A stretch of DNA of 64,000 nucleotides from NCBI GenBank assembly GCA_035504415.1, contig DATJRY010000019.1, positions 62,001-126,000 of the forward strand, read 5' to 3'. The stretch's first letter is position 1, and the number at the start of each line of letters is the position of its first letter. Origin of the DNA: Candidatus Sulfotelmatobacter sp. GTDB lineage: Bacteria > Vulcanimicrobiota > Vulcanimicrobiia > Vulcanimicrobiales > Vulcanimicrobiaceae. This document shows positions 32,389 to 36,614 of this stretch, piece after piece. The notes beneath the pieces were generated by a model. It did not search any database. It had not been told where the DNA came from and saw only the letters and a program-made list of their open reading frames with translations. The position numbers were made by a program, and so were the translations under genes.

Positions 32389-34065
32389 ATGCGGCTTTTC
32401 CACAGCCTGGCGGCGGCGTTGCTGCTCCTCTCCATGGGGCCGCCGCCGGCGGCGCTCGGCGCGACCGGCGGTGCGGAGCCGGCCGGACCGCGTGTCGTGG
32501 TGACGTTGCCGGCCGGCGCGCGCGGACCGCTGACCGGGCGCGTCTACGTCGCGTTCTCCCGTACCGCGTCGCCGGAACCGCGCACGGTGGCCGGCGATCT
32601 CGCCGACAGCGTCCCGTTCTTCGCCCGGGACGTGGGCGCGTGGCGAGCGGGCCAGCGCGTCGCGATCGGTGCGGACACGGCCGGCTACCCGGTCCCGGCG
32701 CTGCGCGACATGCCGCCGGGCACCTATTACGCGCAAGCGATTTTCAGCGTCTATACGCGCTATCCGCGTGCCGACGGCCACGTGATCTGGGCCCATCAGG
32801 ATCACTGGGAAGGCCAAGAATTCGGCCTGAGCCCGGGCAATCTCGTCAGCGCGGTGACGCGCGTGCGGATCGGGCCCGGCGCGCCGCCGATCGTGCTGGC
32901 GCTGACCCGCGTGCTGCCGCCGGTGCGCGTTCCGGCCGACACGCCGTGGGTCGTCCACGTGCGCATCCGCAGCGCGCTGCTCTCGCACTTCTGGGGCGTA
33001 CCGCAGTATCTGGGCGCGACGGTGCTGTTGCCGAAAGGCTACGCGCTGCACCCGCAGCGCCGCTATCCGGCCGTCTACCAGCAGACGCACTTCACGCTGC
33101 GCGCGCCGTTCGGCTTCGATCCGAGCGCCAAACCGCCGACCGCCGCGGAGCAAAACCGGCTGGCGCGCTTCGGCGGGCGCGCCAGCCGCTACGCGTTCAC
33201 GCGGGCCTGGATGCGCGGTGACGCGCCTCCGATGGTCGCGGTGACGTTCCTGCACCCGACGCCGTATTACGACGACTCCTACGCCGTCGACTCGGTCAAC
33301 GACGGACCGTACGGCACCGCGATCATGACCGAGCTGATCCCGTATCTGGAAAAGCGCTTCCATTTGATCGCCGCCGGCGACGCGCGTTTCCTGATCGGCG
33401 GTTCGACGGGCGGCTGGGAAGCGCTGGCGCTGCAGATCTACCACCCGAACGACTTCAACGGCGCGTGGGGGCTGTATCCCGATCCGGTCGATTTTCACCG
33501 CTTCCAGCTCGGCGATCTCTACACGGACGCCAACGCGTTCTACGAGCCGTATGCCGCGTGGAATCTCGCCGAGATCGGCGCGCAGCGGCGCGCCGACGGC
33601 CTCCAGGTCGAGACGATGCGTGGTGAGAGCCGGCTCGAGTACGTGCGCGGCTCACACGGGCGCTCGACGGAGCAGTTCAACGCCTGGGACGCCGCGTGGG
33701 GACCGATCGGTGCCGACGGGTATCCGCGCGAGCTGTGGGACAAGCACACCGGCCGTATCGATCGCGGCGCCGTGCTGTGGTCGCGCGCGCACGGTTACGA
33801 CTTGACCGACTACCTCGTGCGCAATTGGGCGCGCATCGGCCGATCGCTGGTCGGCAAACTGCACGTGGACGTCGGCGACGCCGACGACTACTACCTGAAC
33901 CTCGCTTGCTACCGCATGCAGCACGCGTTAGCCCACCTGACCCCCGGTCCGCAGGCGGAGTTTCGTTATGGCCGGCCGCTCGCGCCGCACGGATGGCAGA
34001 GCACCTCGGATCTGGGATTCTTGCGCGCCATGTGGGCACGCGTGCCGAGCGCGCTGCGCCCTTGA
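32389..34065 (+). CDS. Secreted alpha/beta-hydrolase (putative esterase)
   Basis: 558 residues with a signal peptide (MRLFHSLAAALLLLSMG, cleavage near ALGA). The middle shows an esterase D/enterochelin esterase-like fold: GATVLLPKGYALHPQRRYPAVY, then FLIGGSTGGWEALALQIYHP with the nucleophile serine in GGSTGG. The acid/histidine pair would lie in VDVGDADDYYLNLA and further on. Substrate unknown. An ATG at 32347 would add 14 residues before the signal; I prefer 32389. The stop codon is within the presumed promoter of the sulfite reductase leader. Confidence 0.75.
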   Translation: MRLFHSLAAALLLLSMGPPPAALGATGGAEPAGPRVVVTLPAGARGPLTGRVYVAFSRTASPEPRTVAGDLADSVPFFARDVGAWRAGQRVAIGADTAGYPVPALRDMPPGTYYAQAIFSVYTRYPRADGHVIWAHQDHWEGQEFGLSPGNLVSAVTRVRIGPGAPPIVLALTRVLPPVRVPADTPWVVHVRIRSALLSHFWGVPQYLGATVLLPKGYALHPQRRYPAVYQQTHFTLRAPFGFDPSAKPPTAAEQNRLARFGGRASRYAFTRAWMRGDAPPMVAVTFLHPTPYYDDSYAVDSVNDGPYGTAIMTELIPYLEKRFHLIAAGDARFLIGGSTGGWEALALQIYHPNDFNGAWGLYPDPVDFHRFQLGDLYTDANAFYEPYAAWNLAEIGAQRRADGLQVETMRGESRLEYVRGSHGRSTEQFNAWDAAWGPIGADGYPRELWDKHTGRIDRGAVLWSRAHGYDLTDYLVRNWARIGRSLVGKLHVDVGDADDYYLNLACYRMQHALAHLTPGPQAEFRYGRPLAPHGWQSTSDLGFLRAMWARVPSALRP

Positions 34066-34090
34066 CGCTCCCGCGGGCCTGTGATAAGGT
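34062..34090 (+). promoter_or_regulatory. Candidate promoter of the cysteine leader
   Basis: TTGACG (34062-34067) and TAAGGT (34085-34090) are 17 bases apart, a fair sigma-70 pattern. Transcription would begin about 7 bases later, at or just before the leader ATG (34099), so the leader mRNA may be almost leaderless. AAGGT at 34086-34090 could alternatively be a ribosome site if transcription starts further upstream. Confidence 0.45.
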
Positions 34091-34098
34091 CCGTGCAC

Positions 34099-34173
34099 AT
34101 GTCCTTCACCTGTTGTCTCTCGATGATGCAGTGTTCCACGGGCCTTCGGACCCGGCGGTCGGCAACGTCATGA
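34099..34173 (+). CDS. Cysteine-rich leader peptide of the sulfite/APS reductase operon
   Basis: 24 codons, too short for normal gene finders. The peptide begins MSFTCCLSMMQC: Cys5-Cys6, Met9-Met10 and Cys12, that is five sulfur residues within eight positions, all cysteines TGT. It ends in an arginine/serine-rich stretch and TGA at 34171-34173. An intrinsic terminator follows 28 bases later, before the sulfite reductase start. This is the layout of amino-acid attenuators: scarcity of Cys-tRNA stalls the ribosome and lets the operon be read. Polycysteine leader ORFs upstream of sulfur genes are known in mycobacteria. Confidence 0.75.
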   Translation: MSFTCCLSMMQCSTGLRTRRSATS

Positions 34174-34199
34174 GGCGATAACGGCATCGCAGCGACGTT
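34164..34199 (+). promoter_or_regulatory. Hairpin spanning the leader stop codon
   Basis: AACGTC (34164-34169) pairs with GACGTT (34194-34199); inside, GCGAT (34175-34179) pairs with ATCGC (34186-34190). The leader stop codon is in the left arm's bulge. A ribosome at the stop would open this structure. GGCGG at 34154-34158 can also pair with CCGCC in the terminator's 5' arm, a possible antiterminator contact. Confidence 0.4.
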
Positions 34200-34201
34200 T
34201 T

Positions 34202-34236
34202 GAGCCCCCGCCATCCGGCGGGGGCTCTTCGTTTTT
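34202..34236 (+). terminator. Intrinsic terminator (attenuator) before sulfite reductase
   Basis: GAGCCCCCGCC (34202-34212) and GGCGGGGGCTC (34217-34227) form a perfect 11-bp stem with loop ATCC, followed by TTCGTTTTT. It lies between the leader peptide and the sulfite reductase ATG (34249), where a terminator makes sense only as a regulated attenuator or as an end for the short leader RNA. Confidence 0.85.
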
Positions 34237-34248
34237 CCGGGGAGTACG

Positions 34249-35907
34249 ATGAGCAAGCTCGACGTCGAACGTGCCAAGGCGCAGAGCCGCGGCCTGCGCG
34301 GCGATATCGCCGAGGAGTTGGCGCGGCCGACGGCACGTTTCGACGAAGAATCCGCCGCGCTGCTGAAGTTTCACGGTAGCTACCAGCAAGAGAACCGCGA
34401 TCGGCGCAAGGCGGCGCGCGCGGGCGAGGCGGAGCGCGCCTACGGCTTCATGGTGCGCGTGCGCGCGAGCGGGGGCCGCGTGCCGGCGCGCTTGTGGTGC
34501 GCGGTCGACGACCTCGCCGACCGGCACGGCGACGGCACGATTCGGGTGACGACGCGCCAAGGACTGCAGCTCTACGGCGTCCCCAAGCACGACCTGCGCG
34601 CGACGATCGGCGAGGTGATCGCGAACCTGGGTACGACGCTGGCGACCTGCGGCGACGTGGTGCGCAACATCGTCGCGCCGCCGTGGCCGTACGCGCACCC
34701 GGCGTATGCGCACGTGCGCGAGATCGCCGCATCGATCGCGCGGGCGACGTTGCCGCGCACCGGCGGGTATCTGGAGATTTGGCAGGACGGCGAGCGCGTC
34801 CACGCCGAGGGAGACGAGGACGACCCGCTCTACGGCGCCGCCTATCTGCCGCGCAAGTTCAAGATCGCGGTGACGGTGCCGGGCGACAACAGCGTCGACC
34901 TCTACACCAACGACCTGGGCATCGTCCCGGTGCTCGACGCCGACGGCGCGACGATCGCCTACGATCTGACCGCGGGCGGCGGCCTCGGGCGCACGCACGG
35001 CAAGACGACGACCTTTCCGCGCCTGGCCGACGAGCTGGCGTCGGTGTCGCCCGAGCGGCTGCTCGACGCGGTGTGCGCGATCGTCGCGGTGCAGCGCGAC
35101 TTCGGCGACCGCACCGACCGGCGCCACGCGCGCCTGAAGTATCTGCTGGCCGAACGCGGCGCGGCGTGGTTCCGCGCCGAAGTCGAGCGGGTGGCGGGCT
35201 TCGCGCTCGGGCCGTGGCTGCCGCTGCCGGCGTGGAACGACGTCGCGCGCTTCGGCTGGCACGCGCAAGGCGACGGGCGCTGGTTCTACGGCCTGCACGT
35301 CGCCAGCGGCCGCGTCGCGGACACCGGCGCGGCGCAGCTCAAGCGCGCGCTGCGCGCGCTGGCCGAGCGCGGCGTCGACCTCGTCGCGACGCCGGGCCAG
35401 CAGCTGCTGCTCGTCGACGTGACGGCCGATCGGCGTGCCGCCGTCGAGGACGTGCTGCGCGCGCACGGCGTGGGCGATCCCGCGGCCGTTTCGCCCGTGC
35501 GCCGGCGTGCGCTGGCGTGCCCCGCGCTGCCGACCTGCGGCCTGGCGCTGGCGGAATCGGAGCGCGTGATGCCCGACGTGTTGAGCGCGATCGAGGACGC
35601 GCTCGCGCGGGCCGGGCTGCCGCGGGAGGCGATCGCGATTCGCATGACCGGCTGCCCCAACGGGTGCGCGCGCCCGTACCTGGCCGAGATCGGGATCGTC
35701 GGGCAGAGCCTCGATCGGTACCAGATCTATCTGGGCGGCACGGCGGCTTCGACGCGGCTGGCGCAACCGTGGCGCGACGGCGTGCGCGCCGCCGAGATCG
35801 CCGCGTCGCTCGCGCCGCTGTTCGTCGCGTTCCGCGGCGAGCGCCGCGACGGCGAGACGTTCGGCGACTGGGCGGCGCGCGCGGTGACGGCGCCGGTTCC
35901 GGCATGA
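34249..35907 (+). CDS. cysI: Assimilatory sulfite reductase hemoprotein (siroheme/4Fe-4S)
   Basis: 552 residues, two ferredoxin-like half-domains each followed by a siroheme domain. The cluster cysteines are in CPALPTCGLA and TGCPNGCARP (C-x5-C ... C-x3-C). Siroheme-binding basic residues occur in IRVTTRQGLQLYGV and RHARLKYL. It reduces sulfite to sulfide with six electrons. Nitrite reductases share the fold, but the partner APS reductase gene, overlapping by ATGA, marks this as sulfur assimilation. GGGGAG (34239-34244) is the ribosome site, just after the attenuator. Confidence 0.9.
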   Translation: MSKLDVERAKAQSRGLRGDIAEELARPTARFDEESAALLKFHGSYQQENRDRRKAARAGEAERAYGFMVRVRASGGRVPARLWCAVDDLADRHGDGTIRVTTRQGLQLYGVPKHDLRATIGEVIANLGTTLATCGDVVRNIVAPPWPYAHPAYAHVREIAASIARATLPRTGGYLEIWQDGERVHAEGDEDDPLYGAAYLPRKFKIAVTVPGDNSVDLYTNDLGIVPVLDADGATIAYDLTAGGGLGRTHGKTTTFPRLADELASVSPERLLDAVCAIVAVQRDFGDRTDRRHARLKYLLAERGAAWFRAEVERVAGFALGPWLPLPAWNDVARFGWHAQGDGRWFYGLHVASGRVADTGAAQLKRALRALAERGVDLVATPGQQLLLVDVTADRRAAVEDVLRAHGVGDPAAVSPVRRRALACPALPTCGLALAESERVMPDVLSAIEDALARAGLPREAIAIRMTGCPNGCARPYLAEIGIVGQSLDRYQIYLGGTAASTRLAQPWRDGVRAAEIAASLAPLFVAFRGERRDGETFGDWAARAVTAPVPA

Positions 35908-36614
35908 CGCCGGCCGCACGCGCGCGCGCGCTGGTGGCGCGGACGCTGGCCGCCCACCCGGGGCGCGTCGCGCTCGCGTGCTCGTTCGGTGGGCCGGCCG
36001 GGATGGTGCTGCTCGACCTCGTCGCGCGGCTCGACCGCAGCGTGCCGGTCTACTATCTCGACACCGGCCTCTTGTTCCCCGAGACCTACGAGCTGGTCGA
36101 ACGTGCGTCGCGGCGCTACGGCATCGTGCCGCAGGCGGTGCGGCCGCGGCTCTCGCTCGGTGCGCAGGCCGCCCTGCACGGCCAAGCGCTGTGGGAGCGC
36201 GATCCCGACCGCTGCTGCGCCCTGCGCAAAGTCGAACCGAACCGTGCCTTCGTCGCGGGCTACGCGGCGTGGCTGACCGGGATTCGGCGCGCGCAGACCG
36301 TGCAGCGCGCCGACGTCGTGCCGGTCGCCGACGAGGACGGTGTGCGAAAGATCAGCCCGCTGCACGATTGGAGCGACGCCGAGGTGTGGGCGTACGTCAA
36401 CGCGCACGACGTGCCGGTCAACGCGCTGCACGCCGACGGCTACCCGAGCATCGGCTGCGTGCCGTGCACGCAGCGGCCGCTCGACCCCGCCGATCCCCGC
36501 TCGGGGCGCTGGGCCGGCTTCGGCAAGACCGAGTGCGGGCTGCACCTGCCGCCGGCGGCGGCCGCACCGGCGGGAGAAGCCGTCAGTGCGAGCGCGGCGG
36601 GGGCGGCGAGCTGA
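35904..36614 (+). CDS. cysH: Phosphoadenylyl-/adenylyl-sulfate reductase, iron-sulfur type
   Basis: 236 residues. PP-loop start (RVALACSFGGPAGMVLLDL, a variant of SxSGG), YYLDTGLLFPETY, RCCALRKVEP, SIGCVPCTQRP and KTECGLH. The two cysteine pairs are those that bind a 4Fe-4S cluster in APS reductases, and ECGLH carries the catalytic cysteine. It converts APS to sulfite, which CysI then reduces. The C-terminal 25 residues are low-complexity Ala. Co-transcribed with cysI under the same leader. ATP sulfurylase genes are not in the window. Confidence 0.9.
   Translation: MTPAARARALVARTLAAHPGRVALACSFGGPAGMVLLDLVARLDRSVPVYYLDTGLLFPETYELVERASRRYGIVPQAVRPRLSLGAQAALHGQALWERDPDRCCALRKVEPNRAFVAGYAAWLTGIRRAQTVQRADVVPVADEDGVRKISPLHDWSDAEVWAYVNAHDVPVNALHADGYPSIGCVPCTQRPLDPADPRSGRWAGFGKTECGLHLPPAAAAPAGEAVSASAAGAAS

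Follow-up and report, generated by a model that had tools for sequence, protein, structure and literature searches.

Ribosome-mediated attenuation is a classical mechanism. Attenuators of the trp, his and leu type combine a leader open reading frame (ORF) containing regulatory codons with an antiterminator that competes with an intrinsic terminator, and control genes of the matching pathway. A leader that shares these features was found ahead of cysI-cysH in a 64,000-nucleotide stretch of DNA (contig DATJRY010000019.1; hereafter the window, in whose coordinates positions are given) from Candidatus Sulfotelmatobacter sp., a member of the family Vulcanimicrobiaceae in the phylum Vulcanimicrobiota (Eremiobacterota). 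In contrast to the trp, his and leu attenuators, its regulatory amino acid is cysteine, and its ORF is predicted to begin where transcription starts and to lack a Shine-Dalgarno sequence. We propose, with a probability of about 0.9, that this leader is a trp-type ribosome-mediated transcription attenuator which senses charged tRNA-Cys and controls cysI-cysH.

Cysteine attenuators have seldom been described, and the experimentally supported ones, from mycobacteria, act on translation. Leaderless poly-Cys upstream ORFs (uORFs) were reported in mycobacteria by Canestrari et al. 2020 (doi 10.1111/mmi.14498, cited in PMC9031893), and functional work is also cited in PMC13236596. In the mycobacterial candidates (PMC1262725, PMC4633059), a Cys run is located close to the stop codon; a terminator was not found (PMC1262725). 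The cysI leader resembles these uORFs in that a Cys-rich short ORF, predicted to be leaderless, precedes sulfur-assimilation genes. However, whereas in the mycobacterial uORFs the Cys run is late, no terminator was found and the control is reported to be translational, the cysI leader has Cys at codons 5, 6 and 12 of 24, followed by a strong intrinsic terminator. The uORFC-8-2 motif (PMC8632094) is likewise a predicted Cys-codon transcription attenuator with a terminator, and is described as occurring only in Rhodobacterales. It precedes cysS and its tandem Cys codons are usually codons 14-15, in contrast to the cysI leader. Leaderless attenuator leaders of Streptomyces include trpL1, leuL2, ilvL and metL MSTTSDRTPATEATTTPGARCMCRRMCAF; some have intrinsic terminators and one has mixed Met and Cys codons (PMC8079986). 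These belong to another phylum and to other genes, the Streptomyces metL has no typical terminator, and no cysI-cysH attenuator is among those listed (PMC8079986). Leaderless leaders for amino acids other than cysteine are also known in Sinorhizobium (PMC7298713). The combination of a terminator-based, leaderless Cys attenuator with sulfate-assimilation genes was not met in the open-licence literature searched. The mechanism class is known, but its occurrence in this form on sulfate-assimilation genes in the Vulcanimicrobiota appears to be new.

Architecture of the cysI-cysH leader

The features of the leader are collected in Table 1. Re-reading of the sequence confirmed exactly the 24-codon ORF of the preliminary description, with Cys5, Cys6 and Cys12 (codons at 34111-34113, 34114-34116 and 34132-34134, all TGT), Met9 and Met10 (34123-34128) and a stop codon at 34171-34173. 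At least three Cys residues among 23 codons would be expected with P = 4e-4 at the background Cys frequency of the window (0.64%). The perfect 11-bp terminator with its T-run ahead of sulfite reductase, also described previously, begins 28 nt past the stop codon; its hairpin, GAGCCCCCGCC-ATCC-GGCGGGGGCTC, has a predicted energy of -27.3 kcal/mol (z = -5.9 relative to shuffles). Profile matches bore out the identities of both controlled genes.

The preliminary description made no mention of the promoter, whose distance from the start codon is 7-10 nt. The upstream gene ends at 34065, and a TTGAC-type hexamer occurs at the position equivalent to the -35 element in most cysI relatives. A simple sigma-70 scan called no promoter here, as TAAGGT with TTGACG misses its match threshold; the promoter is supported by its conservation rather than by its match to the consensus. 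Its geometry fits a transcription start at the start of the ORF, which would therefore be leaderless or have a 5' untranslated region of only 1-2 nt. A strict search for a promoter, a leaderless short ORF and a terminator returned a single site in the window, the cysI leader, and 0, 0, 0, 1 and 0 sites in five shuffles.

Table 1. Positions of the leader elements, the controlled genes and similar leaders
Feature	Position	Strand	Basis and remarks
-35 element TTGACG	34062..34067	+	Sequence; overlaps stop codon of upstream gene
-10 element TAAGGT	34085..34090	+	Sequence; 17-nt spacer from -35, ends 8 nt before leader ATG
Predicted transcription start	about 34097-34099	+	Inferred from promoter spacing
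Leader peptide ORF, MSFTCCLSMMQCSTGLRTRRSATS then stop, 24 codons, predicted leaderless	34099..34173	+	Sequence, relatives' leaders
Region 1 (Cys5/Cys6/Met9/Met10 codons)	34110..34128	+	Fold of this genome's leader; predicted to pair with region 2 if ribosome absent
Region 2, 3' strand of 1:2 helix, includes stop codon	34166..34184	+	Folds, covariation
Antiterminator 5' strand GGCGG-tc-GGC	34154..34163	+	Folding; GGCGG at 34154-34158
Hairpin within antiterminator, across stop codon	34164..34199	+	Antiterminator fold; partly conserved in genus
Intrinsic terminator	34202..34236	+	11-bp perfect stem 34202-34227, then TTCGTTTTT 34228-34236; conserved in relatives
Shine-Dalgarno-like GGGGAG of cysI	34239..34244	+	Sequence
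cysI (hemoprotein subunit of sulfite reductase), proposed target of control	34249..35907	+	NF010029, 695.9 bits, cut-off 457
cysH (phosphoadenylyl-sulfate reductase), proposed target of control	35904..36614	+	NF002537, 219 bits, cut-off 154
Leaderless attenuator-like leaders before ssuA, metY, metB, hom, ilvA/B/C, leuA, pheA, aroF-type, trpD	L146-L184, L128, L135 and others		Same family; codons match pathway

Conservation and alternative folds

CysI was searched for in 148 related genomes. Fifteen of them, all belonging to the same family, contained full CysI genes, at 16 loci in total (two genes were split between contigs), and the upstream sequence was read at each locus. Genomes are numbered here, G000 being that of the window and G005, G010, G015 and so on its relatives. 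The absence of a Cys-rich ORF and terminator from relatives that keep cysI, named in the preliminary description as evidence to the contrary, was not the pattern found: a short Cys-containing leader ORF and a terminator, consisting of a hairpin with a T-rich tail, lie upstream of cysI or cysH-cysI at 15 of the 16 loci. The leader peptides of the same genus are MSRARCLMMVCPTGFRSRRSFTS, MLLCCCLTMVCCPGPRSRWLLTS, MLLCCCLLMACPASVARRSASS, MSLFCCRMMVCPTGFLIRR and MLLARCLTMVCTHGSPVRRSVTS, and those preceding cysI in other genera are MLARACCCPGCPPARSIGTG, VIASICCPCRVWVAGVLPERADFG, MIYRCCRYACGTCAFAAHGRVVI, MTQPPFGCPRLGCCRVMRRRVMSALLP, MLSVYAMMMCCISPLRGSA and MFSAHAIMMMCCISPLRGSA. Leaders preceding cysH-cysI are MSSLLGTMCRCCRNCSTGGPANSAMT (G023), MLHRRKGRGMCCCVSSFCKGAEVIAT (G052) and, in G068, MFEVSARKPFMCPFPCCRTGLFRLSM, which was translated by eye and has a weak -35 element. 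Between genera, the peptides differ widely except for the Cys codons. At the 16th locus (G054, L009), the promoter and ribosome-binding site are kept, while the leader and terminator, present in the congener G028 (L007), are absent; the attenuator seems to have been lost here by natural deletion.

In the 12 cysI leaders tabulated, Cys accounts for 37 of 255 codons (14.5%), compared with 0.64% in the long ORFs of the window, and 28 of these 37 are TGT, a codon that is rare in the window background (4/58). The terminator arm begins 16-42 nt past the stop codon, at a distance of 90-103 nt from the start codon. When positions 0-59 nt from the start codon were searched, the best -35/-10 pair lay 7-10 nt away in each of the 11 cysI leaders for which upstream sequence was available; these leaders had been found by CysI homology alone and not by promoter. 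Because of this short distance, the cysI leader of the window is predicted to be (nearly) leaderless. A CysI scan of genome contigs gave almost only cyanobacteria, with about 45-48% identity, which served as a negative control and contained one weak match in 572 kb in the leader scan.

A second cysI leader in G010 (contig C465) was rejected as a separate copy: C465 ends and C47 begins inside one and the same leader sequence, and the two are therefore apparently one locus split by the assembly. At two cysI copies of G015 (L015 and L021), a short stretch similar to the beginning of cysH, apparently a cysH remnant, lies between a Cys/Met leader and cysI. In G038 (L236, minus strand, 779 onward), a second, divergent Cys leader, MQYVLCCCPCRCFGDSVGPA, is located near cysI and apparently precedes cysH.

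With regard to the RNA, RNAalifold identified in the six genus leaders a helix in which the Cys-codon region pairs with the stop-codon region (regions 1 and 2 in Table 1). Its covariation score was 0.255, compared with 0.206 (standard deviation 0.016) in shuffles, of which 2 in 500 scored as high; this protector (1:2) helix, seen in six related sequences only, overlaps the regulatory codons. A pairing of GGCGG with CCGCC is predicted in all six. In G000, the GGCGG that had been noted as able to pair with the 5' arm of the terminator finds its partner at 34208-34212, and GGC at 34161-34163 pairs with GCC at 34204-34206. The hairpin across the stop codon, also noted earlier, is enclosed in this predicted antiterminator. 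The expected switch was obtained in the 12 cysI leaders folded with a ribosome placed on the Cys codons or at the stop codon. With the ribosome on a Cys codon, the 5' arm of the terminator was sequestered by an upstream segment, usually near the end of the ORF, in 12/12 leaders; with the ribosome at the stop codon, this segment was covered or its inner hairpin disrupted, and the terminator formed. Sequestering averaged 0.80 in the cysI leaders versus 0.39 in dinucleotide shuffles (standard deviation of shuffle means 0.075, maximum 0.62), and over all 44 leaders gathered the antiterminator signal was 0.70 versus 0.37 (standard deviation 0.03). The sequence itself shows the parts of the leader and that they are conserved, the bias in codon use and predicted folds that exclude one another.

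From these elements we infer where transcription starts, that the ORF is translated, that termination takes place and that it responds to cysteine. RNA polymerase would start at the predicted position, and since this coincides with the start of the ORF, the leader peptide would be translated from the extreme 5' end of the RNA. With cysteine in good supply, the ribosome would reach the stop codon and cover roughly 34153-34183, thereby hiding GGCGG..GGC, so that the terminator stem would form and transcription would end before cysI. When Cys-tRNA is scarce, the ribosome would stall at the TGT codons (Cys5/6 or Cys12), leaving 34154-34163 free to pair with the 5' arm of the terminator (34204-34212) before the 3' arm has been transcribed; the polymerase would then continue into cysI-cysH. 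If the ribosome is absent, a third fold, regions 1 and 2 paired, would bury the antiterminator. Very probably, the sulfur-reducing genes are switched on in this way only when cysteine is scarce, and the design predicts a set of testable switches.

Several observations weigh against this proposal. The antiterminator of G000 by itself is not significant relative to shuffles (P = 0.21), although the leader set as a whole is. The G000 terminator outcompetes the antiterminator at equilibrium even with a stalled ribosome (Pterm 0.996), and antitermination there must therefore be kinetic, as is usual for attenuators; the antiterminator is favoured at equilibrium in G005, in G017 and, at most stall positions, in G028. 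Covariation neither supports nor refutes the core pairs of the antiterminator because these are nearly invariant. G000 RNA, when untranslated, is likewise predicted to adopt the antiterminator fold in part, and in G038 the stop codon falls beyond the antiterminator strand, so that a terminating ribosome would have to disrupt the inner hairpin. Finally, the relatives share ancestry, and pooled P-values therefore overstate independence. The leader combines pathway-matched codons, an intrinsic terminator and a 1:2 helix with, as a prediction over the leader set, an antiterminator that competes with the terminator and that a ribosome on the stop codon would block. Sensing of Cys-tRNA by ribosome-mediated attenuation, as put forward in the preliminary description, is supported by the relatives' leaders, the codon bias and the predicted switch folds. 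We have high confidence that, judged by its sequence, this is a real and conserved Cys attenuator; it would also give access to a system of leaderless attenuation used across the lineage. It would represent a terminator-based leaderless Cys attenuator on core sulfur-reduction genes, conserved family-wide in a little-studied phylum.

Leaders of other genes and the amino acids proposed to be sensed

A covariance model built from the six genus leaders was searched over 99 genomes of the family and matched the cysI leaders as well as leaders preceding other genes. The non-cysI leaders were gathered by this model and a promoter filter; their geometry is thus partly selected while their codon content is not, though the model was built from cysI leaders. 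Leaders were found ahead of an SsuA-type sulfonate-binding protein (TIGR01728; e.g. VSNQYCLMAMCICCLPYRDRRASA) and of MetY (TIGR01326; MDRRPAMMMMCCSPRGTV). The window's own genome has leaders before ssuA and metY, MIRTTAASMMRMMRTRTSGRRYFVLR before a cystathionine gamma-synthase-like (MetB-like) gene and, outside the window (L167, C19:22118 onward), the leaderless Cys leader MFETGRSAMCCCLCRPRTGRPGFSLA with a terminator before a peroxiredoxin, where cysteine supply may control a thiol peroxidase. Further leaders precede ilvC, ilvB, ilvA, leuA (LLLSGTP), prephenate dehydratase (AYAYWY), DAHP synthase, trpD and homoserine dehydrogenase (ITTTMTTT). Profile matches confirmed the identity of SsuA, MetY, the MetB-like protein, peroxiredoxin, leuA and one homoserine dehydrogenase; the remaining genes were named from the sequence by eye.

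The codon content of these leaders follows the pathway: isoleucine, leucine and valine account for 103 of 270 codons in ilv/leu leaders, and phenylalanine, tyrosine and tryptophan for 40 of 169 in phe/aro/trp leaders. In sulfur-gene leaders, 89 of 665 codons are Cys codons; for the branched-chain and aromatic leaders the figure is 8 of 439 (Fisher 5e-13, descriptive, as the sequences are related). In the window's own genome, the leaderless promoter pattern was counted 34 times, as opposed to once in a reversed control, and most genomes of the order and class also show an excess of it. We consider it only just short of an even chance that a sulfur regulon of the Vulcanimicrobiota, comprising sulfite and phosphoadenylyl-sulfate (PAPS) reduction, sulfonate uptake, MetY, MetB and peroxiredoxin, is run by leaderless transcription attenuators in which the mixture of Cys and Met codons sets the weight given to each tRNA, within a lineage-wide use of such leaders for sulfur, branched-chain, aromatic and threonine pathways.

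In G028 (L144, both strands), divergent Cys leaders precede a flavoprotein of the fumarate reductase/aspartate oxidase type (MSSRPLVCCSACPMHRFGVRPI) and an SsuA-like protein (MLVRLNACVCCCRPIRRASLGVM). The congener G005 carries reaction-centre genes (PF00124).

The preliminary description had also raised the possibility that the cysI attenuator senses both Cys-tRNA and Met-tRNA, as a sulfur amino-acid attenuator. The reason for joint sensing would be that the sulfide made by CysI feeds cysteine and, via MetY, methionine. The underlying codon bias is real: 64 of the 665 codons of sulfur-gene leaders are internal Met codons, compared with 1 of the 439 codons of branched-chain and aromatic leaders (Fisher 9e-14, again descriptive for related sequences), and a single genome exhibits a graded series from peroxiredoxin (MCCCLC) through cysI (CC..MM.C), ssuA (C..AMSMCC) and metY (REMMSMC) to metB (MMRMM). 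In contrast, three distant cysI leaders (G028, G047 and G017) contain Cys and no internal Met. Sensing of Met can only be suggested, because the Met codons of the genus also sit in the conserved 1:2 helix (GATGGTG), and RNA pairing could account for them. Joint sensing is therefore plausible but unproven, with the odds leaning modestly against it.

Other explanations of the hairpin

The leader could act by translational attenuation, given that the mycobacterial leaderless Cys uORFs are cysteine-responsive attenuators of translation (PMC9031893, PMC13236596), or its peptide or terminated RNA could also act in trans, as the terminated trpL RNA of Sinorhizobium and its peptide do (PMC7298713). 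Both are improbable here: a strong intrinsic terminator precedes cysI, whose Shine-Dalgarno sequence lies downstream of it, and the leader peptides, as noted above, differ widely between genera except for the Cys codons.

It is very improbable that the hairpin is a mere terminator of the upstream gene and the small ORF a chance frame. It lies 137 nt downstream of the end of that gene, where a read-through polymerase would reach it, but the promoter sits in between, the promoter-ORF-terminator block is conserved beside cysI while the sequence farther upstream is not, and the bias towards Cys and TGT would be left unexplained. A ligand-binding riboswitch or T-box with an incidental ORF would fit a structured leader RNA (z = -3.9) that ends in a terminator, but is equally improbable, as Rfam covariance models (T-box, SAM and other cis-regulatory families) gave no match at gathering score within the window, conservation tracks codon identity across pathways, and the leader ORFs begin at the promoter with constant geometry. 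Sub-threshold Rfam matches to the leader were rejected as chance (best 26.3 bits, cut-off 55).

The window contains a second leaderless leader on the minus strand (26397-26317), with TTGACC, an 18-nt spacer and TACGGT followed by MIAARFGLPVAKILVGYVPSAGSSFA, before a branched-chain aminotransferase-like gene (ilvE). A strong GC hairpin without a clear T-run is located behind this leader at about 26286-26256 on the same strand.

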